Source: Pseudomonas sp. MM211
Lineage (GTDB): Bacteria; Pseudomonadota; Gammaproteobacteria; Pseudomonadales; Pseudomonadaceae
Assembly: GCF_020386635.1 (NCBI RefSeq)
Contig: NZ_CP081942.1
Span: 434,001 to 498,000 of the forward strand
Direction of reading: 5' to 3'
DNA: 64,000 nucleotides
Below, piece by piece: positions 1 through 12,208 of this stretch (the stretch's first letter is position 1; each line of letters opens with the position of its first letter). The notes under the pieces were generated by a model. The model made no database searches. It saw only the letters and a program-made list of their open reading frames with translations, and was not told the DNA's origin. The translations under genes were made by a program, and so were the position numbers.

Positions 1-767
1 CTCAGTACGTAGGTGCCCTGCCCCTGGCGTTCGCGCCACAGGTACCAGGCGAATGCCCCGGCCATGCCGAGCAACAGGAGCAGCCCTGTAAAGAACAGGG
101 TGCGTGCCCGCGACACGCTTTCATCGAGCATCCAGATACCCAGGAAGGAGCTCAGCGGCGGCCGGGCATCGTCACGCAGATTGCGCATCGCCGCCTTGAT
201 CGCGGTGACCGAGACGCCGTCGTAGTTCAGCCCGGAAATGCTGTTGGCGACCAGGGTCTTGATCTGCGGAATCAACTGGTCGACATCGGTATCCGGCTCA
301 TAGCGGATCAGCACCGATGCCGACGAAGGCGAAATCACCCGTTTGAGCAGGTCGTTGTCCGGCAATACCACGTGCACCCGTGCCGACAGCACGCCATCGA
401 TCTGCGACACGGTGTGCGACAACTCCTCGCTGAGGGCATAAACCATCTGCGCCCGCTCCTGCACCGGCGAGGACACCAGCCCGTTGTTCTTGAACACCTC
501 GCCCATGTTGGAAAACTGCTGTTGCGGCAGGCCGGCTTCGTCGAGCAGCGCCACGGCGTCGGAAAGCCGCTCCTGGGGCACGCTGACGGTGATGCGGCCA
601 TCCTCCTGCACCTGGCGCTGGGCGGCGATGCCCTCACGCAGCAATGCAGCGACCATGCTGTTGGCTTCACGCTCGCCCAGGTTGCTGTACAGCACCATGC
701 CGTCACAGGCCTGCAGCAGCAGCGTCAGCATCAACAGCGCGACCAGCCGAAAAGGATGCCCGCGCAT
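1..767 (-). CDS. sctJ: T3SS inner-membrane ring lipoprotein SctJ (HrcJ/YscJ family), C-terminus cut by window edge
   Basis: SctJ forms the periplasm-facing inner-membrane ring of the type III secretion basal body. The reading frame from ATG at 767 runs through the left window edge without a stop, giving about 255 residues. It opens with a lipoprotein signal peptide ending in LLQAC, so Cys21 would be lipidated. The ring-building segments follow, including YSNLGEREANSMVAAL and the NNGLVSSPVQERAQMVYALSEEL region typical of the family, and a hydrophobic segment (FFTGLLLLLGMAGAFAWYLW) near residue 230–245 is the C-terminal membrane anchor. It starts 2 bases after the sctI stop, the usual sctI–sctJ order. 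Only the last few residues should be missing. Confidence 0.93.
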   Translation of the reverse strand, partial: MRGHPFRLVALLMLTLLLQACDGMVLYSNLGEREANSMVAALLREGIAAQRQVQEDGRITVSVPQERLSDAVALLDEAGLPQQQFSNMGEVFKNNGLVSSPVQERAQMVYALSEELSHTVSQIDGVLSARVHVVLPDNDLLKRVISPSSASVLIRYEPDTDVDQLIPQIKTLVANSISGLNYDGVSVTAIKAAMRNLRDDARPPLSSFLGIWMLDESVSRARTLFFTGLLLLLGMAGAFAWYLWRERQGQGTYVL

Positions 768-769
768 GG

Positions 770-1177
770 TCACTGGCCCCTTAGCAGGGTGTTGGCAGAA
801 CCGGAAATCTGCGTGGCGCCACGCACCACCATCTGGGTTTCGATGGAGTAATCGAAGACCCGGCTGAGGGAGCCGACCAGGCGATCGATCTGCTGTTCGT
901 TGACCTTACCCGGCTCGACACCAGCGCCCTTGTCCACCGGCGAGCTGCTGACGTAGGGCGTGCGCTCCACCGCGGCTGCGTCGGAGAACCCCCGCGAGCG
1001 GTCGATGAAACCGTTGAGTCGTTCCATCAGGTTCTCACCGATCTGGTTCGGACTGGCGCCCTGAGGCATACCCTTGGCCTGGCTGGCCATGTGCTCGAAC
1101 AGGTTCTGCGAGACCTGGGCGACATCCTGGCCGGCGGCCGAAGGGGCCGCCGTGGCAACTGCTGCGCTGACTGTCAT
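770..1177 (-). CDS. sctI: T3SS inner-rod protein SctI (YscI/HrpB/NolB type)
   Basis: A 135-residue protein placed directly before sctJ, where the inner-rod subunit lies in most T3SS operons. The C-terminal third (around VFDYSIETQMVVRGATQISGSANTLLRGQ, split here: VFDYSIETQMVVRG then ATQISGSANTLLRGQ) has the amphipathic helix and the TQ…S…N.LLRGQ ending seen in YscI-family rod proteins. The N-terminal half is Ala/Gln/Gly rich and probably disordered, as expected for a protein that is itself secreted. There is no signal peptide. The assignment rests on the C-terminal motif and gene order; the N-terminus is not informative. Confidence 0.8.
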   Translation of the reverse strand: MTVSAAVATAAPSAAGQDVAQVSQNLFEHMASQAKGMPQGASPNQIGENLMERLNGFIDRSRGFSDAAAVERTPYVSSSPVDKGAGVEPGKVNEQQIDRLVGSLSRVFDYSIETQMVVRGATQISGSANTLLRGQ

Positions 1178-1192
1178 GGCCGATCCCCGTGG

Positions 1193-1396
1193 TTATTCTT
1201 CGTCGTCCGCGGTGGCTTCCTTGAGGATCTCCTGGGCCCGCGGCATGACGATGAACTGGCCGCCGAGGATGATCGCCTGAGTGATCATGTCGTCGGTGAG
1301 GTCGTCCCCGGCCTGTGCGTTCTCGAGCGCCTGGTCGAACTCGGCCTCAGGGGTGTTCTCTACCGTGCTGTTGCCATCTACCGAACTGACTGCCAT
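1193..1396 (-). CDS. Small acidic T3SS-linked protein, unknown (candidate needle subunit or chaperone)
   Basis: A 67-residue, strongly acidic protein with a very good ribosome binding site (AAAGGAGAG, 5–10 bases before ATG), lying between sctC1 and sctI. Residues 30–60 (DDLTDDMITQAIILGG, then QFIVMPRAQEILKEA) are predicted helical; the ends are polar. In many T3SS operons the gene before sctI encodes the needle subunit SctF (about 60–85 residues), so this is the best positional candidate in the window. It lacks a sequence signature I would trust for SctF, and a small SsaE/HrpF-like chaperone is equally possible. No function is assigned. Confidence 0.7.
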   Translation of the reverse strand: MAVSSVDGNSTVENTPEAEFDQALENAQAGDDLTDDMITQAIILGGQFIVMPRAQEILKEATADDEE

Positions 1397-1435
1397 GGGA
1401 TCTCTCCTTTCACCTGAATATTGAAAAGCTACCTG

Positions 1436-2107
1436 CTATTCGTCCGCACCCTTGACCACCTGGATGCCGGCACTACCGCGAAACACCCGCACACCCCGCT
1501 CGCGAACCACTTCGGGCTCTGCCACCACCGGGCTCTGCAGTTGATCGATACGTTGCTGAACCAGCGCCATGTAGGGCGGCGGCCCGGAAATCAGCATGCC
1601 GTCGCCGTGAAAACTGCTGCGCAGGGACAGGTGCTTGCCTGCTACTCCCAGCTCGTCCAGGGAGGCCTGCAGCTCGTCGAGTTGGAAACCGCTGGGTTCG
1701 AACTGGCGAATCTCGATCTCTTCCTCACTGTTCACGTGCAGCATGTTGCCGTCGAAAAACCAGGTCAGGCCGCTGTTGCCACACAGCGCGTCGAGAAACT
1801 CGCCTGCGCTGGAAGCCCGCAGATTGCTCTGCGCCCGCCCCTTGACCCGGTTGGAAATCGCCATAGGCAGACCGAGGTTGCGCCCGAAGGCTTCCAGCGC
1901 ACTGCGCAGATCCTGATTGATCACCACGTAGGCATAGGGCTGTTCGTACCACTGCGGCGTCGCCTCGGCGCGTGCCAGCCCCGCACTGCCCGCCAGCAAC
2001 AGCAGGGACAGCGCCAGACCACGCCTGACGAAACCACTATCGGCGCAGGCAGGGCGATGAAACAACCGCCGGCCGGCAACAATCACAAGATTTCGCAGCC
2101 GCTTCAC
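1436..2107 (-). CDS. sctC1: T3SS split-secretin N-terminal piece (SctC1; RhcC1/NolW-like)
   Basis: A 223-residue exported protein carrying only the periplasmic N0/N1 domains of a T3SS secretin (…YVVINQDLRSALEAFGRNL, NLRASSAGEFLDALCG, LTWFFDGNMLHV, then DELGVAGKHLSLRS and MLISGPPPYMALVQQRIDQL). It stops there, with no outer-membrane secretin domain. Rhizobial T3SSs are known to split the secretin in this way (NolW/RhcC1 plus RhcC2), and the same order rhcC1–sctI–sctJ is found there. I chose the GTG at 2107, which gives a long basic n-region before the hydrophobic LALSLLLLAGSAGLARA signal peptide; upstream residues in the same frame are not plausible. The ribosome site is weak, so a start at a later GTG or TTG is possible. 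Confidence 0.82.
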   Translation of the reverse strand: MKRLRNLVIVAGRRLFHRPACADSGFVRRGLALSLLLLAGSAGLARAEATPQWYEQPYAYVVINQDLRSALEAFGRNLGLPMAISNRVKGRAQSNLRASSAGEFLDALCGNSGLTWFFDGNMLHVNSEEEIEIRQFEPSGFQLDELQASLDELGVAGKHLSLRSSFHGDGMLISGPPPYMALVQQRIDQLQSPVVAEPEVVRERGVRVFRGSAGIQVVKGADE

Positions 2108-2173
2108 ATACCCCGCCGAAGATGGCTCTATAGAATGCCCAGCACGTGCCGGATCAACCCAGGAGCAGCGCCT

Positions 2174-2983
2174 TTGCCGTCGATTTCCCCCCGCCACATC
2201 CTGCTGCTCGCCAGCTTCGCCCTGCTGGGCGCCTGCAGCAGCAACGCGCCCAGCAATGCGTCCGCGCCAGCGGGCGATGACGCCTACCAACGCCTGATGA
2301 AACTGGCCAACGATGTCGAGGCACGCGGTGACCGCGGTACCGCCGCGACTCTGTATCAGCGCGCCGCCGAACAGCCCGGCGCCGGTTTCGAGGCCTGGCA
2401 GCGACTGGGCCGCGCGCGGCTGGACAGCGGTAATACCCGCGGCGCGGAAGAGGCCTACCAGAAAGCCGTCGCGCTGGAGCCGGACAACCCTCTCGGCTTG
2501 CTCGGCCTGGGCACTGCACAGTTGCGCCTGGGTTACCCGGAACGCGCCCAGCCGCTGCTTGCCAGCGCTGCCGAACAGCTGCCCACCGACGCCCAGGCCT
2601 TCGCCCGCCTGGGCGCCGCCGAAGCGCAGCTGGGCAATATCGCCGCCATGCAACGTGCCTTCGCCACCGCGCGCAAGCTGGCTCCCGGCGATCTCGATGC
2701 GCGCAGCAACCTGGCGCTGTCCTATGCCCTCAATGGCGACAATGCCAATGCGCTGCGCGAGATCGACGGCATCGACCGCGCGCCCACCGCGCAACTGCGC
2801 CACCAGCGCAATGCACTGCTGATCCAGGTGCTGGCTGGCAAGAGCGGCAAACCGGCCAGCGTGCAACTCGACGACACCAGCGCGGCTGAGCGCCAGGTGC
2901 TGATCGCCGAAGCCCGGCGCATCGCCGCCATCACCGACCCTGCCGAACGGGCGCGTGCCCTGGGCCTGAGCGCCGGCAAATAG
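2174..2983 (+). CDS. TadD-like TPR lipoprotein embedded in the T3SS cluster
   Basis: A 269-residue lipoprotein on the strand opposite to its T3SS neighbours. The TTG at 2174 is chosen because AGGAG lies 9 bases upstream and the signal peptide then ends in LLGAC (Cys20 or so lipidated); the in-frame ATG at 2135 has no ribosome site. Four or more TPR units follow (YQRLMKLANDVEARGD, WQRLGRARLDSGNTRGAEEAYQKA as separate stretches, and so on). The region RSNLALSYALNGDNANALREI followed by RHQRNALLIQVLAG resembles the signature of TadD, the TPR lipoprotein of Tad pili. An oppositely oriented TPR gene between the two secretin pieces has been described for the second T3SS of some P. syringae. A role in secretin assembly is inferred. 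Confidence 0.8.
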   Translation: MPSISPRHILLLASFALLGACSSNAPSNASAPAGDDAYQRLMKLANDVEARGDRGTAATLYQRAAEQPGAGFEAWQRLGRARLDSGNTRGAEEAYQKAVALEPDNPLGLLGLGTAQLRLGYPERAQPLLASAAEQLPTDAQAFARLGAAEAQLGNIAAMQRAFATARKLAPGDLDARSNLALSYALNGDNANALREIDGIDRAPTAQLRHQRNALLIQVLAGKSGKPASVQLDDTSAAERQVLIAEARRIAAITDPAERARALGLSAGK

Positions 2984-3009
2984 AGGCTTCTGCCGTGTGA
3001 TGGCGAGGC

Positions 3010-3405
3010 TCATTGGCCGCCTCCGGTATCGCTCTGCGCCGCCTGCTCCTGCCGGCGGCGGCGCTTCTCATCGGTTTCGTAGCCCTCAAGATACGACTGC
3101 GCCGCCCGCCCCACCGGCGCGGCCAGCGTCGGGCCGGTCTGCCGGCCGCGCAGCAGGTCACCACGGCGCTCGACCATCTGCAGCAGATTGGCGTTGTTGG
3201 CGCAGCCGGGCGGTAGTGGCAATAGCTCACGCTCGTCGACCGGCTGGCCCTCATCGCTGACGCGACGGCAGGCATCCGGCACCAGCAAGGTCTGGCCGCT
3301 ACCGTCGACGATGGTCTGGTAGCCGTGGGAATAGCTCGGCGCCTGCAGCTCGGTCTGGCAGGCGCCCAGCAGCAGGCAGATGGACAACACGCTCAGACGC
3401 GTCAT
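3010..3405 (-). CDS. Short CpaD-like pilus-type lipoprotein in T3SS cluster
   Basis: A 131-residue lipoprotein: the signal peptide MTRLSVLSICLLLGAC gives lipidated Cys16. The ATG at 3405 has GGGAG 7 bases upstream; an earlier ATG at 3423 overlaps the sctC2 stop and has no ribosome site. The C-terminal half (LPPGCANNANLLQMVE, RRGDLLRGR, then PVGRAAQSYLEGYE) matches the conserved end of CpaD, the lipoprotein partner of the Tad-pilus secretin CpaC (known pattern GCA..NLA.MV..P.DL). It is shorter than usual CpaD (about 200+ residues), so the N-terminal part is reduced. It follows sctC2 at once, which suggests a partner or pilotin role for that secretin. Confidence 0.72.
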   Translation of the reverse strand: MTRLSVLSICLLLGACQTELQAPSYSHGYQTIVDGSGQTLLVPDACRRVSDEGQPVDERELLPLPPGCANNANLLQMVERRGDLLRGRQTGPTLAAPVGRAAQSYLEGYETDEKRRRRQEQAAQSDTGGGQ

Positions 3406-3419
3406 CGCGGTACTCCCGT

Positions 3420-4697
3420 TCATTGCACGTGGAACCCGAAAGAACTGCTGCGCGCCGGTGCATCGGCACGCGCACCGACGGTGCGGTCGAGTGGCGTGAG
3501 CATGGCCTGGGTCTGCACCGGTTCGACCAGATAGGGCGTGATCAGGATCACCAGCTCGGTTTCGTTCTGCTGGAAACGCTTGGAGCGGAACAGGTTGCCG
3601 AGGATCGGCATGTCACCGAGCAGTGGGACTTTCTCCAGATCCTGGGAATTCTCTCGCTGGAACAGGCCGGCGATGGCGAAGGTCTGCCCGCTGCCCACCT
3701 CGACACGGGTATCAGCGCGGCGCACGCGGAACGACGGCACGCGGAACCCGGACACCTCCAGGGTGCTGCCGCCCATCAGGCTGCTGACTTCCGGACGCAC
3801 CTGCAAACCGATGCGGTTATTGGGCAGCAGTGTCGGGCTGAACAGCAGCGACACGCCGTAGGATTTGTATTCGACGCCAACCAGATCGCTGTTCACCGGC
3901 ACCGGCACCGGCACTTCGCCGCCCGCCAGGAAGCTCGCCGTTTCACCGGTCATGGCGGTGATGTTGGGTTCGGCGAGAATCTCCAGCACACCATTGCTCT
4001 GCAGCGCCTCGAGCACGGTGTCGATATTGAAGTTGCCGCTGTCCAGACCGGCACTGATCAAATTGGAAGCGCCGCTCGCCGCTTCCGCAGCCAGGTTGCC
4101 GCCGGTGAGCAGGCCGAAGGAAAAGGTGCCGTTGTTGAATAACGCATTCCAACTCACGCCGTAGCGCAGCAGTTCCTCGCGGGACACTTCGGCGAAGCGC
4201 ACGCGAATGTTGACCTGCGCCGATCCCGGATAGGTCGCGGTGTTCACCGCGCCCTGCCACTCCTGCCCGGTAGGGTCGAGCATGGCATTGAGATCCAGCG
4301 CCTCGCCGACGCTGCTGACCTGGCCGCGGGCCGCCAGGCGGTTGCCCACGCCCTTCACTTCGGTGCGGCTCTGCGGATGGCTGCTGCGCAGCGCGCTGCT
4401 GATCGGCCGGCCATTACTGCCGACGTTGATCTGCAGCGAGGCGATCTCCCGCTCGTCGCTGCCCAGCGCTACCAGCGTGGTGTGCCCGGCACGCTTGCCG
4501 AACAGGTAGATGACGCCAGGTGACACCACCTGCAGGTCGGCGACGCCCGGTTCGGCGACCATCACCGCGTCCACCGGCTCGGCGAAACGCATGATGCGCC
4601 CCTCCCCCGTCGCCAGATCGATGCTGCCGCCCAGCGGCGCCTGCGCCACGGCCAGCAACGGCATGCAGCAGAGCATCAGCAACAGCCCACGCATCAT
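3420..4697 (-). CDS. sctC2: T3SS outer-membrane secretin (SctC2/RhcC2), CpaC-like
   Basis: A 425-residue secretin with a cleavable signal peptide. The N-terminal domain (about residues 22–95: IDLATGEGRIMRFAEPVDAV, MVAEPGVADLQVVSPG, VIYLFGKRAGHTTLVAL) is the domain of Tad-pilus CpaC/RcpA, not the N0/N1 pair of ordinary T3SS secretins. A further periplasmic region contains VNIRVRFAEVSREELLRYGV, and the outer-membrane secretin domain (ILAEPNITAMTGETASFLAGG to about residue 400) includes VEYKSYGVSLLFSPTLL. Rhizobial RhcC2 proteins have the same character. The start overlaps the sctV stop by 4 bases, so translation is coupled. The T3SS-type N0/N1 domains are supplied separately by sctC1. Confidence 0.92.
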   Translation of the reverse strand: MMRGLLLMLCCMPLLAVAQAPLGGSIDLATGEGRIMRFAEPVDAVMVAEPGVADLQVVSPGVIYLFGKRAGHTTLVALGSDEREIASLQINVGSNGRPISSALRSSHPQSRTEVKGVGNRLAARGQVSSVGEALDLNAMLDPTGQEWQGAVNTATYPGSAQVNIRVRFAEVSREELLRYGVSWNALFNNGTFSFGLLTGGNLAAEAASGASNLISAGLDSGNFNIDTVLEALQSNGVLEILAEPNITAMTGETASFLAGGEVPVPVPVNSDLVGVEYKSYGVSLLFSPTLLPNNRIGLQVRPEVSSLMGGSTLEVSGFRVPSFRVRRADTRVEVGSGQTFAIAGLFQRENSQDLEKVPLLGDMPILGNLFRSKRFQQNETELVILITPYLVEPVQTQAMLTPLDRTVGARADAPARSSSFGFHVQ

Positions 4698-6832
4698 GTC
4701 GCACCTGCCAGAGCAGCAGGTGCGGGTTCATTTCTTTCCGCCCGCGTGGTGGCCGGCGTGCCGATCACCTTGATCGCCTGCAGGCTGTATTCCGGAGCCA
4801 GTTCGGTAAAGGACAGCACGGCCATCTCCAGTTCGTCACGAATGCACAGGCGCAAGATCCGACGGCGTAACTCGGGGTGTACCACCAGGGTCGGTTTGAT
4901 CTGTTCGGGGAGTTGCGCGCACTGCTGACGCAGCGCCTTGAGCAGGCCGCGGGTAGCTTCCCGAGCGCGGATTTCACCGCGGCCGGTGTCTTGCTGACGC
5001 GCCGCCTCGAGCAGCTGAGCCTCAAGGGCCGAGCCCAGCACAAAAGCGGCGATCACCCGTTTTTCATCGGCGTGCTGATGGCTGATCTGACGAGCCAGCG
5101 CGCTGCGCAGGTGGTCGCTGAAACGCCCGACGTCACCTTCGCGACCACCCCACTCGACCATCGCTTCGAGCAGCGCACGGCGGTTGCGGATCGATACACC
5201 TTCGGCGACCAGCCGACGCAGCGCATCGGCGATACGCTGCAAGGGCACGGCACGCAGGGCTTCCTTGACCAGCTCGCCGTGGCTCTCCTCGAGATGGGCG
5301 AGCAACTGGCGGGTTTCCTGGATACCAAGAAAGTCCCCGGCGTAACGGCGCAGGGTGCGCGCCATCAGGTCACGGAGAATTTCGTCAGGCCGCAAATAGA
5401 CGATGCCGGCATCACTCAGATCGGCCTGGTGTTCACCGGCAATCCACAGACCTGGGCGGCTGCTCAGCGGTGATGCGCGCTCCTCGCCCTGGATGTCGAG
5501 CAGTTGCAGGTGCACCGGGTCGTCGCGCAGCAGTACCTGGGCAGGGTTCAATTCGCCCTGATCCACCGGCACGCCTTCCAGTTCGACACGGTAGCTGCCC
5601 GCCGGAGCGGCCATGTCGACCAGCACCGACGGCATCGGAAATTCGATGCCCAGCTCGTTGTGTAAATCGTGACAGAGCACCTCGAGGCGCTGCTTGAAGG
5701 GCTGCAGAGGTACAGCCTCGGCCAGCGCCGGGCCGAGGGACACGAGCACACGTGAGTCAGCCGCTGCGGACGACGCTTGCGCTTCGCTTTCGGGCTCGAC
5801 CTCGCTGGTTTCCTCGACCACCTCGGGCAGCGTCATGTCGGCTTCCAGCTCACGATTCTGACGCCGCCGCAGCATCCAGGCGCACAGGCCGAGCACCGCT
5901 GACAAACCGAGAAACACCGCAGCTGGAAAACCGGGAATAAAAGCTACCGCGAGCAGAATCAATGCCGTGATCGTCAGCGCACGCTGGCTATTGCCCATCT
6001 GGCGGATGATCTCGGTACCCAGGTCGACCTGCTCAGCCTCGTTGTTGACCCGGGTGACCACGGTACCGGCCGCGACAGCGATCAACAGCGCGGGAATTTG
6101 CGAGATCAGGCCATCACCAACAGTGAGCAGCGAGTAGGTATGGCCCGCGTCGGCGAACGACATACCGCGTGACAGCATGCCAATCAGCAATCCGCCGATC
6201 AGGTTGACAAAAAGGATGATCAGGCCGGCAATGGCATCGCCTTTGACGAACTTCATCGAGCCGTCCATGGCGCCGAACAGCTGGCTCTCGCGTTGCAGAT
6301 CGGAGCGCCGACGACGGGCCTCGTTGGCATCGATATCGCCGTTACGCAAGTCGTTGTCGATGCTCATCTGCTTGCCGGGCATGGCATCCAGGCTGAAGCG
6401 TGCGGCCACCTCGGCAACCCGTTCGGCACCCTTGGTGATCACCACGAACTGCGCCACGGTGATGATCAGGAAGATCACCAGCCCCACCACCACCTCGCCG
6501 GCAATCACGAACTTGCCGAAGGCTTCGATGATATGCCCGGCATCGGCGTGCAACAGAATCAGCCGTGTGGTGCTGATCGACAGGGCCAGACGGAACAGGG
6601 TACTGAGCAGAATCAGCGCCGGCAGTGCCGACAATTCCAATGGTTTTCTGATGTAGAAGGCCACCACCAGCACCAGAATGCTCAACGCGATGCTGATACC
6701 GATCAGGGTATCGACCAGATAGGTCGGCAGCGGGATGATCATCATCACGATGGCCATCATCATAAAGGCGATGACCACCACCTCGGTGCGCTGCGCGGCC
6801 ATGCTCGCCAGAGCACTGAGGCGCGCCATCAT
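4694..6832 (-). CDS. sctV: T3SS export gate protein SctV (FHIPEP family)
   Basis: A 712-residue export gate protein. About eight membrane helices occupy residues 20–330, and the FHIPEP-family signature ARFSLDAMPGKQMSIDNDL lies at 144–162. The large cytoplasmic domain (about residues 360–712), which forms the nonameric docking ring for chaperone–substrate complexes, is intact. Its length is close to the usual 680–710. The start overlaps the preceding sctY-like stop by 4 bases and has GGAG upstream. A charged stretch (EVVEETSEVEPESEAQ) at about residues 335–350 links membrane and cytoplasmic parts. Confidence 0.97.
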   Translation of the reverse strand: MMARLSALASMAAQRTEVVVIAFMMMAIVMMIIPLPTYLVDTLIGISIALSILVLVVAFYIRKPLELSALPALILLSTLFRLALSISTTRLILLHADAGHIIEAFGKFVIAGEVVVGLVIFLIITVAQFVVITKGAERVAEVAARFSLDAMPGKQMSIDNDLRNGDIDANEARRRRSDLQRESQLFGAMDGSMKFVKGDAIAGLIILFVNLIGGLLIGMLSRGMSFADAGHTYSLLTVGDGLISQIPALLIAVAAGTVVTRVNNEAEQVDLGTEIIRQMGNSQRALTITALILLAVAFIPGFPAAVFLGLSAVLGLCAWMLRRRQNRELEADMTLPEVVEETSEVEPESEAQASSAAADSRVLVSLGPALAEAVPLQPFKQRLEVLCHDLHNELGIEFPMPSVLVDMAAPAGSYRVELEGVPVDQGELNPAQVLLRDDPVHLQLLDIQGEERASPLSSRPGLWIAGEHQADLSDAGIVYLRPDEILRDLMARTLRRYAGDFLGIQETRQLLAHLEESHGELVKEALRAVPLQRIADALRRLVAEGVSIRNRRALLEAMVEWGGREGDVGRFSDHLRSALARQISHQHADEKRVIAAFVLGSALEAQLLEAARQQDTGRGEIRAREATRGLLKALRQQCAQLPEQIKPTLVVHPELRRRILRLCIRDELEMAVLSFTELAPEYSLQAIKVIGTPATTRAERNEPAPAALAGAT

Positions 6833-7170
6833 GCTTCACGCTCCTGGCGCAGTTGCCGGTAGCGGGCGAAACAGGTGCGGGCCTCGGCGTGCTGGCCGGT
6901 GCTCCACAGGGCACGGCTGCGCAGCAGCAGCCAGGCGGCCGATTCGCCCTGCAGCGCATGCAGGCGATCCAGGGTACGCAACGCCCGCTCGCCATCGCCG
7001 ATGGCAGTGAAGGCAGCGGCCAGGCGGGCCAGCAGCACGCGGTCGTCCGGGTTTAGTTGCACGGCCAGCAGCAACAGCACCAGCGCGCGCTGCCCCTGAC
7101 CAACCCGCAGATAGAGATCGCCCAGGCCTTGCAACAGCTTGGCGGCATCATGATCGTCGCGCGGCATCAT
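6829..7170 (-). CDS. sctY: Small TPR protein, SctY (YscY)-like T3SS chaperone
   Basis: A 113-residue cytoplasmic protein made of about three TPR helix pairs (LLQGLGDLYLRVGQGQRAL, LLLAVQLNPDDRVLLARLA, then AAFTAIGDGERALRTL). Length, fold and position directly before sctV match YscY (about 114 residues), which in the Ysc system binds YscX and SctV. Rhizobial clusters also have a small TPR gene (y4yS) beside rhcV. It overlaps both neighbours by 4 bases. The family call rests on fold and context rather than on diagnostic residues. Confidence 0.6.
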   Translation of the reverse strand: MMPRDDHDAAKLLQGLGDLYLRVGQGQRALVLLLLAVQLNPDDRVLLARLAAAFTAIGDGERALRTLDRLHALQGESAAWLLLRSRALWSTGQHAEARTCFARYRQLRQEREA

Positions 7171-7535
7171 TCCCCCGTCTCGGTTTCGACCCGCTGCCGA
7201 TCCAGAGCCTGACGGGTGTCGAGCTCTTCGCGGACGAGGGCCATGGCCAGCGTTCTGGTTTCGCCGTCGAGCGGCAGCGTCGGCAGGATACGTTCGAGAA
7301 TGTCCTCGAGAATTTCCGCGGGTCGCGAGCCAGCGAACAGCCCAGGCTCCACACCAGCAGCCAGCTCCAGCGCCTGCAGGTCATCCTGCACCGACGGCAG
7401 CGGCGGCGTGCGCGGCAGGCTAGGCTCACGAGGAGCAGGTGAAGGCTTTATCGATGTGGGTAGCAGATCGGCTCGGTTACTAACCTGCGAAGCCGAATCG
7501 ACATGGGCCAGTGGGGCGCGTGAATCGATCTTCAT
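7167..7535 (-). CDS. T3SS-linked protein, possible SctX (YscX)-like export substrate
   Basis: A 122-residue protein between sctD and the sctY-like gene. The first half is Pro/Ser-rich and probably unfolded (PTSIKPSPAPREPSLPRTPP); the second half is helical (ILEDILERILPTLPL and TLAMALVREELDTRQAL). YscX has the same length, a disordered N-terminus and a helical C-terminus that binds YscY, and it is encoded next to yscY and yscV. No diagnostic YscX residue is clear, so this is mainly a positional inference. Two bases separate it from the sctD stop. Confidence 0.5.
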   Translation of the reverse strand: MKIDSRAPLAHVDSASQVSNRADLLPTSIKPSPAPREPSLPRTPPLPSVQDDLQALELAAGVEPGLFAGSRPAEILEDILERILPTLPLDGETRTLAMALVREELDTRQALDRQRVETETGE

Positions 7536-7536
7536 G

Positions 7537-8490
7537 CTAGCCCTCAGGCACTGGCGAAGGCCCGAGTGTGAGAGCGAAGCGCTCATCGCCAAGCGCCAGC
7601 ACCACCTGACCGTCCTCGATACGTTCGAGCTTCCAGCCACCTTCCAACGGTGCACCGGGATACAGGCGCGCACCCGATGCATTGATCACGTAGGGGTTGT
7701 CGCCGAACCACACGGCCTGGAAATTGACCCGTGGGCGGACGGCGTTTTCGCGCACGCTGACATCGCCGCGCAGTACGTACTGGCGCCCGTAACGGCCATC
7801 GAAGTACTGCTGCAGGGCCAGCCAGTCCTGCTTCTGTCCTGGCTCCACAGTGCCACTGACGCGTACCTGACCGGCACTGGCGTCAAGTTTGAGATTGTTC
7901 AGCCCGGCGGCCTTGGCCTGGCTGGCCAGGTCGGCGCGGGCCAGTTGCAGTGACGCTGCCTTGGGCGCCTCTGCCGGCTGCTCCTCGGCAATAGTCAGGC
8001 GCTGCAGCGACTCGGGCTCAGAGGCGTATATCGGGGTGTCGCGCAGCATCGCTAGCGCGCCCGCACAAATGAACATGAACAGCGCGGCGATTGCCCATTG
8101 CGCCTTGCCGTACCACACGGGGTTGGCAGCCGGGCCACCGCGCTGGGGCATGGCGAGGCGCAGGGTCGCTTCGCCGATGCGGATATCTACTGGCAGTCGG
8201 CCGCGGTAGCCGTGCCCGCGCGCGATTGTGGTTTCACGACCGGCGCGGATTACCCGCACGTCGCCGCCAGTGGCTTCGACGCCGACGTGGCGGGCACTGA
8301 AACGCAGGGTCAGGTGACGCTCCGCAACCCCGGCGTCACGCAGCATCAGATTCGCCGCAGCGCCACTGCCGATGCTGTACACCGCTTCATCCAGTGGCAG
8401 GGAAACACCACGGTGAACGCCTGCGGTCACATCCAGACGGGGCAGGTCGCCGCTGTTCGGCAGGACGGAACTAGAGGCTATCGCAGTCAT
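7537..8490 (-). CDS. sctD: T3SS inner-membrane ring protein SctD (FHA domain)
   Basis: A 317-residue single-pass protein. An N-terminal cytoplasmic FHA-like domain (about 18–115, with YSIGSGAAANLMLRD and VAERHLTLRF) precedes one membrane helix (about 131–149), and a periplasmic ring-building part contains a BON-like unit (LKLDASAGQVRVSGTV). This is the SctD order. The ATG at 8490 is preferred because GGTGAG lies just upstream; a GTG three codons earlier lacks a ribosome site. It is the first large gene of the sctD–X–Y–V–C2–cpaD-like chain. Confidence 0.9.
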   Translation of the reverse strand: MTAIASSSVLPNSGDLPRLDVTAGVHRGVSLPLDEAVYSIGSGAAANLMLRDAGVAERHLTLRFSARHVGVEATGGDVRVIRAGRETTIARGHGYRGRLPVDIRIGEATLRLAMPQRGGPAANPVWYGKAQWAIAALFMFICAGALAMLRDTPIYASEPESLQRLTIAEEQPAEAPKAASLQLARADLASQAKAAGLNNLKLDASAGQVRVSGTVEPGQKQDWLALQQYFDGRYGRQYVLRGDVSVRENAVRPRVNFQAVWFGDNPYVINASGARLYPGAPLEGGWKLERIEDGQVVLALGDERFALTLGPSPVPEG

Positions 8491-8631
8491 AGGACTCACC
8501 AGGGCTCGGGGATCGCGCTATCGAACGACATATCCAGCCAGAACGGCCAGACCATGCACTCGATGGAAAAGGTGCCGATAACGGCGCAGACGCAGGTTGC
8601 AGGCGACGCCGAGCGCCGCCTGCAGCCCGGG

Positions 8632-8793
8632 TCAGTTCTGCGGACGCTGCTTGGTCGCGTCGAGCTCGGCTTTCTTGGCCGTGGTGATTTCGGTGATCTT
8701 GGCGGATTTCTCGATCGCCATATCGAACACTGCGGACATCTTGTCGATGGCGGCGTCTGAGTTGCCACTGTTTACTGCAGGAGTCTCAGCCAT
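8632..8793 (-). CDS. Very small T3SS-cluster protein, unknown
   Basis: A 53-residue protein starting MAETPAVNSGNSD, with ribosome site GGAGAT before the ATG at 8793. Residues 14–45 (AAIDKMSAVFDMAIEKS and AKITEITTAKKAELDA) form a likely amphipathic helix; there is no signal peptide. It is the outermost gene of the T3SS cluster in this window and is read in the same direction as sctD, 141 bases upstream of it. It could be a needle or pilin-type subunit or a small chaperone; I see no signature to decide. Confidence 0.6.
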   Translation of the reverse strand: MAETPAVNSGNSDAAIDKMSAVFDMAIEKSAKITEITTAKKAELDATKQRPQN

Positions 8794-8924
8794 GGGATAT
8801 CTCCGAACGAATCTAAGGGTAATTGGCGGCACCACCAGCGGTGATAACCGGTTTCAGGAAAACCACCTCGATGAGCGGGCTTTCCTGCAACGACTCGAAG
8901 CCTAGGGAGGGATGGCAGAGCGGT

Positions 8925-8944
8925 GTTGTTAAAGGTTGTTAAAG
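8925..8944 (+). repeat. Tandem 10-base duplication
   Basis: GTTGTTAAAG occurs twice in direct succession. It lies in the roughly 285-base gap between the last T3SS gene and the sRNA. In the rest of that gap (8794–9078) I see only a possible GacA half-site near 9017. Confidence 0.7.
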
Positions 8945-9004
8945 CTTGTAGGGAGGTGTTTAACAGGGCGAGCGCCCGTGAACCGGTCGATGCTCCAGCG
9001 CAGC

Positions 9005-9022
9005 TATAGCGAAAGGCTTACA
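9005..9022 (+). promoter_or_regulatory. Possible degenerate GacA upstream activating site
   Basis: CTTACA at 9017–9022 is a perfect right arm of the known GacA box (TGTAAG-N6-CTTACA). The left arm (TATAGC) matches only 3 of 6. Its distance of about 60 bases to the predicted start of the sRNA fits known rsm promoters. Weak evidence alone. Confidence 0.3.
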
Positions 9023-9078
9023 CGACAACGCGCGGGTTCGCTCTCGCCGACAGATCGATGACACCGTAATCTAACCAC

Positions 9079-9190
9079 ATTCCCGCAGCACAGGACGTGC
9101 TCGGGGTCATGGATGACGTGACCATAGCCAGGATGGCAGCCGACAGGATGTTGGCATTGGTCAGTAAAAGCCCGCTTCGGCGGGTTTTTT
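9079..9190 (+). ncRNA. Rsm-type (RsmX/Y/Z-like) sRNA with four GGA-loop hairpins
   Basis: Four consecutive short hairpins each present GGA in the loop: AGCAC/GTGCT at 9087–9101 (loop AGGAC), GTCA/TGAC at 9106–9117 (loop TGGA), GCCA/TGGC at 9127–9137 (loop GGA), and GCCGACA/TGTTGGC at 9139–9155 (loop GGA, one G·U pair). A rho-independent terminator follows. RsmA/CsrA dimers bind exactly such GGA loops, and RsmX/Y/Z RNAs are 110–130 nt of repeated GGA hairpins plus a terminator, so the role as an RsmA decoy is well supported. The 5' end is estimated from a TAATCT -10-like hexamer at 9067–9072; no good -35 is seen, as is usual for GacA-activated promoters. The gene lies between the T3SS and a convergent acetyltransferase gene. 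Confidence 0.82.
9166..9190 (+). terminator. Rho-independent terminator of the Rsm-type sRNA
   Basis: CCCGC-TTCG-GCGGG stem with a UUCG tetraloop, then TTTTTT. AAAA before the stem lets it also work for the convergent acetyltransferase gene ending at 9214. Confidence 0.9.
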
Positions 9191-9213
9191 ATTGCCTGAA
9201 ATAAAGTGGTTGA

Positions 9214-9666
9214 TCAAAGGTCACGCGCCATCACCAGCGTGCGCTCATCATTGTCCACAACCTCGCGAACCAGGGTATAGCCTTGCGCAACATAAAACGC
9301 CTGGGCCGTCAGCGAGGAGGGAACAGATAACCGTCGCACGCCTGCCTGCAGCGCAGCCTGCTCGATCGCACACATCAACGCCCGGCCAATACCGCGCCCT
9401 TGCACAGCAGGCGCTACGAAAACCGTTCTTACCACCTCACCATCCAGACTGGCGGTGCCGACGATAGCGTTCTCGATCTCAGCTACCAGCACTAAACGGA
9501 TCGCAAGCAGCTGCACAATCGCAGCTGGCGTAAAATTGCACGCTACGCGCTCGATCACCGATGGTGGATAGTCCAGCGCATTGCTTTGCCGCAAAGCCTG
9601 GACGATAACCTCACTGATCGCGTCGGCATCCGCAGCGCAGGCTGCCCGTATATGCAGTTCATTCAT
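9214..9666 (-). CDS. GNAT family N-acetyltransferase
   Basis: A 150-residue acetyl-CoA-dependent acetyltransferase of unknown substrate. The GNAT core is clear: motif A VRTVFVAPAVQGRGIGRALM (acetyl-CoA loop QGRGIG), then LSVPSSLTAQAFYVAQGYTL. The ATG at 9666 overlaps the end of the upstream membrane-protein gene by 8 bases; a longer frame back to 9807 only overruns that gene. The two genes form a small operon. Confidence 0.85.
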   Translation of the reverse strand: MNELHIRAACAADADAISEVIVQALRQSNALDYPPSVIERVACNFTPAAIVQLLAIRLVLVAEIENAIVGTASLDGEVVRTVFVAPAVQGRGIGRALMCAIEQAALQAGVRRLSVPSSLTAQAFYVAQGYTLVREVVDNDERTLVMARDL

Positions 9667-10075
9667 CAGCTGCTCGCACCTGTGGCTGGCGACGTTCACG
9701 CAAGCACTGCAACGCCCACCCGGCAAGACCGGCGGATACCACTTCGAACAACGTTGCCCAAAGGTTGAAGGTCTGCTGCGCGCCGCCATCAAGCCACATA
9801 CCGACAATGCGCCCCAGTGCCAGGCTGACGTAAAGCACCAGCAGCAGCGTCAACGCCGGGCGGGTCAGCTCGCGCAGCCACAAACCCAGCGCAAGAAAGA
9901 CCGCCACACCGACCTGCAAGGCGCCGTAATAGGCCCTTACATCTGTCACCGCCGACGCCTCCATCAGCAACATGCCGCTGATTGCGCCCATCTCTTGCGG
10001 GCGCAGGAAATAAGCCACGCCAAAGCCGGCGAGCACCAGGATCTGCACAGCGAGAAAAACACGGGCAAACAACAT
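9659..10075 (-). CDS. Small DUF4345-like membrane protein
   Basis: A 138-residue protein with four predicted membrane helices: residues 5–23, 45–63 (YYGALQVGVAVFLALGL), 72–92 and 108–125. Pattern and length resemble the DUF4345 family, whose function is unknown. It is co-transcribed with the overlapping acetyltransferase. Confidence 0.7.
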   Translation of the reverse strand: MLFARVFLAVQILVLAGFGVAYFLRPQEMGAISGMLLMEASAVTDVRAYYGALQVGVAVFLALGLWLRELTRPALTLLLVLYVSLALGRIVGMWLDGGAQQTFNLWATLFEVVSAGLAGWALQCLRERRQPQVRAADE

Positions 10076-10227
10076 GGCAGAACTCCTCTAATCACAGGCA
10101 GTGAGCATAGGCCACTCAATGCGGCGGCTGGAAGGCGTTGGCGTAGCGGGCCGCAGCAAACCATCCAAATGAGGTAAACACTGCGTCCCGGCGCTATGCT
10201 CGCGAAACACCATGGAGGATTTCCAGC

Positions 10228-10662
10228 ATGCGCCCATTGCTTCTGCTCGCCGGCTTGTTCGCCAGCATCGTTCAGGCCGCCGAGCCGCCCACCATCGACG
10301 TGCACCGCGATGCCAACTGCGGCTGCTGCAAAGGCTGGATCAGCCACCTGCAGGCCAACGGTTTCCAAGTCAACGATCATGTCGAAACCGATATGCACGC
10401 GGTCAAGCAGCGCTTGGGCGTGCCCGAGCACCTGGGCTCATGCCACACCGGCGTGATCGACGGCAAATTCGTCGAGGGCCATGTCCCGGCGGCCGACATC
10501 CTCAAACTGCGTGAGCGCCCTGATCTGCTCGGCATCGCCGCCCCTGGAATGCCCACCGGCTCGCCGGGCATGGAACGCGGCAATATTCGCGATGCCTATC
10601 AGGTCATCGGCCTGGACGCACAAGGCGACGAAAGCGTGGTCAGTAGCTATCCGGGCAACTGA
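10228..10662 (+). CDS. DUF411 family exported, probable metal-binding protein
   Basis: A 144-residue protein with a signal peptide (about residues 1–18). It has the DUF411 thioredoxin-like fold markers: TIDVHRDANCGCCKGWISHL with Cys31, Cys33 and Cys34, a later SCHTGVIDGKFVEGHVP, and PGMPTGSPGME near the end. DUF411 proteins are often found beside copper-resistance genes and are thought to bind metals, but no copper gene is nearby here. The start has GGAGGA upstream. Confidence 0.85.
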   Translation: MRPLLLLAGLFASIVQAAEPPTIDVHRDANCGCCKGWISHLQANGFQVNDHVETDMHAVKQRLGVPEHLGSCHTGVIDGKFVEGHVPAADILKLRERPDLLGIAAPGMPTGSPGMERGNIRDAYQVIGLDAQGDESVVSSYPGN

Positions 10663-10687
10663 ATCGCCCCATTAAAAGGACATCACC

Positions 10688-11551
10688 ATGCGCTGGAAAC
10701 GAGCACGACGCAGTGACAACGTGGTGGATGCCCGCGGCGGCGGAGGGTCGCGCTTCGGTGGTGGCCGCGGCCTGGGCCTGGGCGGTATCGCCATTGTCGT
10801 GGTGGTCGGCCTACTGATGGGCCAGGATCCGCTGCAGATATTGGGTCAATTGGCGGGCCAATCGGGAGGTTACTCCAGCAGTCAGACGGATAATCCCGCC
10901 GCCAATGACGAGCAGTCGGAGTTCGTGCGGGCAGTGCTCGGGGATACCGAAGATACCTGGCGCGAGATCTTCCTGTCCGCCAATCGCCAATACCAGGATC
11001 CTACCCTGGTGCTGTTCGATGGCGGCGTGAACTCGGCCTGCGGTTTCGCCAGTTCGGCAGTTGGCCCCTTCTATTGCCCAGGCGACAAGCAGGTCTATCT
11101 GGATCTGAGTTTCTTCCGCGATCTGGAGCAGCGCTACGGCGCAGCGGGCGACTTCGCACAGGCCTACGTGATCGCCCATGAGGTCGGCCATCACGTGCAG
11201 ACCCTGCTGGGCGTCTCCGCCAAGGTCAATGCGGCGCGCCAGCGCGGTGAGAGCCTGGAGGGTGCCAACGGTCTGCTGGTTCGCCAGGAACTTCAGGCCG
11301 ACTGCCTGGCCGGAATCTGGGCACACCACGCGCAGCGTCGACTGGACTGGCTTGAGCCCGGCGATCTGGAAGAGGCCCTGAACGCCGCCAACGCCATCGG
11401 CGACGACCGCCTGCAACAAAAAAGCCGCGGCCAGGTGGTACCGGACTCCTTCACCCACGGCACCTCGGCACAACGCGTGCGCTGGTTCACCACCGGTTTC
11501 GAAGGCGGCCAGGTCAGTGCCTGCGACACCTTTTCCAGCACGCAGCTGTGA
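10688..11551 (+). CDS. ypfJ: YpfJ-like neutral zinc metallopeptidase
   Basis: A 287-residue membrane-anchored protein. A Gly-rich, basic N-terminus is followed by one membrane helix (about 31–45); the globular domain has the zinc-protease motif HEVGHH at 164–169 with a downstream acidic helix (LQADCLAGIWAHHA) that supplies the third ligand. Length and motifs match the YpfJ/putative neutral zinc metallopeptidase family. The substrate is unknown. It follows the DUF411 gene by 25 bases with AAAAGGA upstream, so co-transcription is likely. Confidence 0.88.
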   Translation: MRWKRARRSDNVVDARGGGGSRFGGGRGLGLGGIAIVVVVGLLMGQDPLQILGQLAGQSGGYSSSQTDNPAANDEQSEFVRAVLGDTEDTWREIFLSANRQYQDPTLVLFDGGVNSACGFASSAVGPFYCPGDKQVYLDLSFFRDLEQRYGAAGDFAQAYVIAHEVGHHVQTLLGVSAKVNAARQRGESLEGANGLLVRQELQADCLAGIWAHHAQRRLDWLEPGDLEEALNAANAIGDDRLQQKSRGQVVPDSFTHGTSAQRVRWFTTGFEGGQVSACDTFSSTQL

Positions 11552-11561
11552 GCGTCTAGAC

Positions 11562-11594
11562 TGAAGGGCATGTGGGTTACTCGCATGCCCTTCA
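11562..11594. terminator. Perfect 11-bp stem-loop after ypfJ
   Basis: TGAAGGGCATG and CATGCCCTTCA flank an 11-base loop. It lies 10 bases past the ypfJ stop. There is no T-run, so it may be a transcript-stabilising hairpin or an operator for the next gene rather than a terminator. Confidence 0.5.
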
Positions 11595-11644
11595 CGGTTG
11601 CCAGGATCGGCAACCGCCCCACTCCACGGACAAGGAATGTACCG

Positions 11645-12208
11645 ATGCCTATCCGCAACGACCGCGTCATCCACAACACCGAAGACAAAGGCTGGTGGTG
11701 CCACCACGGCCTGCATCTGGAGCGCAGCTTCGTCGAGCTGTGTAGCCGCCACCTGCGGCTAACCGCGATGGAAAACCCGGAAAAATCGCACAACCCCTAC
11801 GCCCCGGATCTACTGGTAGAGGGTCGGCTGGCCGATCTAAAGGTGCAGAACACGCCGTTCTTCGTCAGCGCCCGCTATGGTCTGAACCCACGGCGCACGG
11901 TCACATTCAACCGTAAGGACTACGAGCGCTATTCGCGGCTTTATCCACAGATCGACATCTATTACTGGGTCGATTGGACGCAAACCGAATCGCGCTTCGG
12001 CCGTGTCGATTACCTGGCCGGCATCTATCGACTGCCCTTTGCACAGCTCGCCAAGCTGATCGAAGCGTCCGCGCCAGAGCACTTCTACGCGCACCGCATG
12101 CACGACACCCAAGGCAACGCCAAGTCTTCTTTCCTGCTCGATCTGGATCATTTCGAAACCCTGCTGGAGCGCGACACGATCACTGCACCGCAGATCGGCC
12201 AGGGCTGA
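11645..12208 (+). CDS. Conserved hypothetical protein with a PD-(D/E)xK-like motif
   Basis: A 187-residue soluble protein, with AAGGA before the ATG. I do not recognise a named family. Residues 52–68 (YAPDLLVEGRLADLKVQ) show PD at 54–55 and D64-x-K66 nine residues later, the spacing of PD-(D/E)xK nuclease-fold active sites, with a possible helix glutamate at E27. The rest is rich in aromatic residues (SARYGLNPRRTVTFNRKDYERY; DIYYWVDWTQTES). A nuclease-fold role is only suggested. It sits alone between ypfJ and the rhamnose operon. Confidence 0.65.
   Translation: MPIRNDRVIHNTEDKGWWCHHGLHLERSFVELCSRHLRLTAMENPEKSHNPYAPDLLVEGRLADLKVQNTPFFVSARYGLNPRRTVTFNRKDYERYSRLYPQIDIYYWVDWTQTESRFGRVDYLAGIYRLPFAQLAKLIEASAPEHFYAHRMHDTQGNAKSSFLLDLDHFETLLERDTITAPQIGQG

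Follow-up and report, generated by a model that had tools for sequence, protein, structure and literature searches.

The locus at 9078-9190 on the plus strand of the 64-kb window (the window being the whole stretch of DNA that was analysed, 64,000 nucleotides) is almost certainly a chromosomal rsmX gene, a decoy for RsmA/CsrA in its ordinary Gac/Rsm role. This reading is the best one because the family match, the upstream box, rsmY, rsmZ, a CsrA gene and a GacA-family regulator are all present. The gene lies at the edge of a T3SS cluster. Sequence comparison indicates that this adjacency is real but lineage-specific, and it is most likely incidental.

Identification of the rsmX gene

A cmscan search of the 64-kb window matches positions 9078-9190 (plus strand) to rsmX (RF02144) with 82.1 bits against a gathering cut-off of 56 (E 1.3e-13). 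The match runs end to end (model positions 1-114 of 114), and rsmX is the sole Rfam family above its cut-off across the window. The original prediction of an Rsm-type sRNA, for which such a covariance-model search had been proposed, is thereby upheld and given an Rfam identity. Its suggestion of a new member of the family holds in that the locus adds one orthologue to a known family, and not in any wider sense. The features of the gene and its promoter side are as follows:

9005..9022 (+), GacA-type upstream activating box TATAGC-N6-CTTACA (motif search)
9067..9072 (+), probable -10 element TAATCT (invariant in a 4-copy alignment)
9078..9190 (+), rsmX sRNA gene (RF02144), ~113 nt (cmscan)
9083..9104 (+), hairpin 1, GGA starting at 9093 (fold)
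9105..9123 (+), hairpin 2, GGA starting at 9111, first G paired (fold)
9127..9137 (+), hairpin 3, GGA starting at 9131 (fold)
9139..9155 (+), hairpin 4, GGA starting at 9146 (fold)
9171..9190 (+), intrinsic terminator, G+C hairpin and T run (fold; inside the rsmX model)

The covariance-model search finds one rsmX place above cut-off in the window's own genome (G000), and its score is below that of many other rsmX copies, which reach 117 bits. Among 57 genomes searched, 36 of them from the window's genus with its own genome counted in, 24 carry rsmX above cut-off, all within that genus. RsmX has been published for P. protegens CHA0, P. syringae DC3000 (rsmX1-5) and P. brassicacearum (rsmX-1, rsmX-2) (PMC7366521, PMC7911923). 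The present locus shares with this family the full-length model match, the length, the GGA hairpins, the terminator and the upstream box; it differs in being a single above-cut-off copy, in having 4 GGA motifs and in the T3SS cluster alongside.

Two related RNAs were considered. RsmY (RF00195) is also a CsrA-titrating RNA and the locus cross-matches its model at 42.6 bits; however, this falls under the cut-off of 57, which rules out RsmY, and the genome has a separate rsmY (one, 95.3 bits, above cut-off). RsmZ/PrrB (RF00166), of the same function class, is ruled out as well: the locus is unmatched by its model at E 0.001, and one separate rsmZ is present above cut-off (110 bits).

Fold and GGA motifs

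The four GGA-exposing hairpins followed by a strong terminator, on which the original prediction was built, are confirmed by the fold and by the full rsmX model match. The structure occupies 9083-9190 on the plus strand. Folding 9060-9200 gives an MFE of -56.3 kcal/mol (z -3.83), which none of 200 dinucleotide shuffles reaches. In the MFE structure every GGA leaves at least two of its three bases unpaired, a pattern of four that is reached by 3 of 500 dinucleotide shuffles. By itself this pattern is no more than moderately rare, and it is the covariance-model match that settles the rsmX identity. A simple terminator scan listed the terminator hairpin (9171-9190) on the minus strand only.

The stems were compared with those of copies of equal length. 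The pair 9084-9103 in hairpin 1 is C-G in G000 and T-A in all four equal-length relatives, which reads as a compensatory change. Two other pairs differ on one side yet still pair, and in two of five equal-length copies the bases that close hairpin 4 (9145-9149) no longer pair. RNAalifold, run on an alignment that took in 37 rsmX copies only, recovers hairpins 2-4 in part and the terminator, with little covariation; hairpin 1 is not recovered in the consensus of these 37. The number of GGA motifs per copy ranges from 3 to 8, and 30 of the 37 copies have at least 5, against 4 in G000, just one of which is a strict ANGGA motif.

Promoter side

The sequence TATAGC-N6-CTTACA, which we take to be the consensus of the GacA-type box under that name, has its only match in the 64-kb window at 9005-9022, with up to 2 substitutions allowed on either strand. 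The box lies at -72 to -75 from the RNA in 48 of 50 rsmX copies (35/37 and 13/13), the other two having the CTTACA half only, with a poorer first half. This count covers 50 of 52 distinct above-cut-off copies, with G419 taken as G001 and two copies, in G022, left out. Downstream, TAATCT at 9067-9072 is probably the -10 element. No promoter was picked up by a simple sigma-70 scan across 8500-10000, and Hrp box and sigma-54 motifs, searched by consensus sequence as a weak test, were not found in 8794-9077. A palindromic upstream activating sequence of rsmX, rsmY and rsmZ is described as a potential GacA site in other work (PMC2375449).

The match, the box and the surroundings bear on two other accounts of the locus. 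That it is a terminator with chance hairpins, and no RNA gene at all, has practically no probability. Two weak rsmX-model matches elsewhere in G000 (32 bits), both over terminator-like hairpins, do look like artefacts of this kind, but the present locus scores 82.1 bits over the full model with a box at a near-fixed offset, and orthologues at another genomic place keep the GGA loops. (The rsmY and rsmZ searches and inspection of the sites ruled out these two weak matches as rsmY or rsmZ.) It is also very unlikely that the RNA belongs to a neighbouring gene, as its 3'UTR, leader or attenuator, rather than acting in trans. Its 3' end is 24 bases from the end of a convergent GNAT gene (9214); however, there is no recognised plus-strand gene immediately up- or downstream, the T3SS-side genes and the GNAT gene are on the minus strand, and the nearby plus-strand ORFs overlap them. 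Moreover, a relative (G001) conserves the whole box-to-terminator unit although both flanks differ there.

The Gac/Rsm pathway

Besides rsmY and rsmZ, G000 has one detected CsrA gene (named CsrA by NCBIfam) and, beside uvrC, a GacA-family regulator (NF007018, 314.3 bits against a cut-off of 280). Having a single above-cut-off copy each of rsmX, rsmY and rsmZ and one detected CsrA gene, the genome carries a compact Gac/Rsm circuit. All five near relatives likewise have rsmY and rsmZ above cut-off and one detected CsrA gene. The single CsrA-family gene detected per genome in G000 and these relatives can be set beside the at least two such genes described in several Pseudomonas species (PMC7366521).

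In other Pseudomonas, GacA-controlled RsmX, RsmY and RsmZ, which carry several unpaired GGA motifs, are described as sequestering RsmA-type proteins (PMC2375449, PMC7366521, PMC7911923). For the present gene we infer transcription, GacA control, CsrA binding and an effect on targets from the genome sequence. Phosphorylated GacA would turn on rsmX transcription from a start a short way past the upstream box. The RNA of ~113 nt would then fold so that its hairpins offer GGA to the CsrA/RsmA dimer, and RsmX would titrate CsrA/RsmA jointly with RsmY and RsmZ. This titration would alter CsrA control of target mRNAs cell-wide. If RsmX affects the adjacent T3SS at all, it would do so in trans, no differently from its other targets.

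Gac/Rsm control of the G000 T3SS in trans is plausible because such control has been published for other Pseudomonas T3SSs. In P. aeruginosa, for example, the RetS pathway is described as lowering rsmY and rsmZ, with activation of the T3SS (PMC2904497), and in P. syringae DC3000 T3SS-related genes are reported to be activated by RsmA2 and RsmA3 (PMC7952654). By analogy with these cases, the effect of RsmX in G000 would be a reduced T3SS output; the T3SS type there may differ from the published ones.

Genomic neighbourhood

The T3SS cluster lies to the left of rsmX on the minus strand and includes an SctV match above its cut-off. SctJ spans the left edge of the window, and the stator, ATPase, C-ring and export genes are farther left, beyond the window (L174). 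An IS110-type transposase gene is found just past the far end of the cluster (L174:1775-2776, outside the window). The genes nearest to rsmX on both sides are:

7537..8499 (-), sctD-like T3SS inner ring gene (TIGR02500, 57.6 bits, below the cut-off of 86)
8632..8793 (-), 53-aa ORF at the T3SS edge, divergent from rsmX (ORF list)
9214..9669 (-), GNAT gene, on the other side of rsmX (family match)
9659..10075 (-), DUF4345 gene (family match)
10228..10662 (+), DUF411 gene (family match)
10688..11551 (+), zinc metallopeptidase gene, closing the block 9214..11551 (family match)

The T3SS secretin is seemingly split into two minus-strand ORFs (1436-3013 and 3420-4697) that correspond to early and late parts of the SctC model. 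One section heading in a paper about T3SS-2 of P. syringae, a rhizobial-like system (PMC3574062), names a split secretin, so the T3SS beside rsmX may be of the rhizobial-like T3SS-2 type.

The distance of about 290 bases to the first T3SS gene, as originally given, stands in part. The start of the nearest T3SS-side ORF (8793) is indeed 285 bases from rsmX, but searches of Pfam and NCBIfam assign this 53-aa ORF to no family. Going outward from rsmX, a match to a T3SS family first comes with the sctD-like gene, whose start is near 8487, ~590 bases off. The DNA of the 53-aa ORF stretch aligns in G001, G402, G414, G378 and G376. Comparison of window positions 1-12000 with a plasmid collection, bearing on plasmid origin, returned 5 records, none of which matched more than 5% of the query.

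On the other side, the order from rsmX to the zinc metallopeptidase gene, its side and its orientation are unchanged in all six close genomes (defined in the next section), and the T3SS is the variable neighbour. Relocation of rsmX to the T3SS, which had been entertained in the original prediction, is rejected on this ground, despite the ~7 kb of extra genes that lie between rsmX and GNAT in G001, G402, G414 and G378. In these four (L168 8867-13012 in G001), an enoyl-CoA hydratase gene is followed by rsmX, with GNAT and DUF4345 ~7 kb on, and the distance from rsmX to the metallopeptidase gene is ~11 kb, against ~1.5 kb in the window. The genes between rsmX and GNAT in the four relatives include one for an OprD-type porin. 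The best matches to the hydratase in G000 and G376 have 34 and 36% identity only.

At greater distance the surroundings of rsmX are different again. The regions around 30 more distant rsmX copies amount to 25, each up to 20 kb. No match to the rsmX-flanking proteins of G000 or G001 was found in 20 of them; the other five have one match each, never to the gene next to rsmX in G000 or G001. Across the genomes of the genus sampled here, rsmX therefore sits in widely differing positions.

Conservation of the rsmX-T3SS adjacency

A search of 398 genomes of the genus detected SctD in 41. The close set consists of the six genomes with the nearest SctD (73-100% identity: G000, G376, G402, G414, G001 and G378); the comparison of SctD loci covered these and 24 more distant ones, or 30 of the 41 SctD-bearing genomes. 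Within the close set, rsmX adjoins SctD in two genomes, G000 and G376, where the genes are adjacent and divergent and the DNA aligns through the whole rsmX-T3SS intergenic stretch. The two genes are 261-262 kb apart in G402 and G414 and on separate contigs in G001 and G378. In these four genomes T3SS homology to the window stops at 8949, before the rsmX box, and rsmX homology starts at 9003, at another genomic place; the four have in common most of the sequence flanking the T3SS on the former rsmX side. None of the 24 more distant SctD loci (L119-L142, ~1.5-kb flanks) contains rsmX above cut-off, nor do the 10-kb flanks of two SctV loci, L033 (91% identical; Pseudomonas sp. URMO17WK12:I2, apparently belonging to G001) and L034 (63%). 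Among the best-listed literature matches for rsmX and T3SS, no title concerns an rsmX gene adjoining a T3SS. T3SS linkage is thus not a trait of rsmX kept among relatives, which weakens the proposal of a linked regulatory pair.

Unrooted trees were used to ask which arrangement is older. G000 groups with G376 in the tree of the csrA and rsmZ loci (support 82), in that of csrA, rsmZ and the metallopeptidase gene (95) and with the metallopeptidase gene alone (97); the csrA flanks alone give an unresolved tree in which the two are not grouped. An earlier tree that included the rsmY flanks also joined G000 and G376 (87), with the pair nested inside the others. The rsmY flanks were dropped from the final trees because their identities are uneven (G000 is 85.6% identical to G414 and 71.6-73.0% to the other four). 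Since G000 and G376 group together, one change between linked and unlinked states is enough. The linked state may be ancestral, in so far as unrooted trees can suggest it, because G376 is the most distant genome in the csrA and rsmZ flanks; the metallopeptidase gene does not clearly set it furthest apart.

These data also bear on the idea that rsmX and the T3SS are a selected linked pair, with the ~285 bp intergenic region coupling GacA-driven transcription of rsmX to the output of the T3SS operon in cis and RsmX acting in trans as well. The divergent arrangement common to G000 and G376, with intergenic DNA aligning throughout, speaks for it, and the trees allow a single change and possibly an ancestral linkage. 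However, the genes are apart in the other four close genomes, where T3SS homology ends at 8949, all 24 distant loci lack rsmX above cut-off in their flanks, and rsmX stays with its neighbour on the opposite side, so that we regard this idea as improbable. In its most specific form, one divergent promoter region in the G000/G376 lineage would serve both rsmX and a T3SS operon that may be rhizobial-like, GacA acting in cis at 9005-9022 and RsmX in trans, and the arrangement would have been lost in the four sister genomes by rearrangement. If true, this would be a physically coupled Gac/Rsm-T3SS switch, but we think it a long shot. With an ordinary rsmX decoy gene as the preferred reading, the comparison is a caution against inferring regulation from adjacency: the stable neighbour of rsmX lies on the side away from the T3SS.

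A minor observation concerns copy number. Besides the T3SS-side copy, G376 carries another rsmX (71.7 bits) that has diverged further and is preceded by an upstream box of its own (L166, C75; L173, C14).
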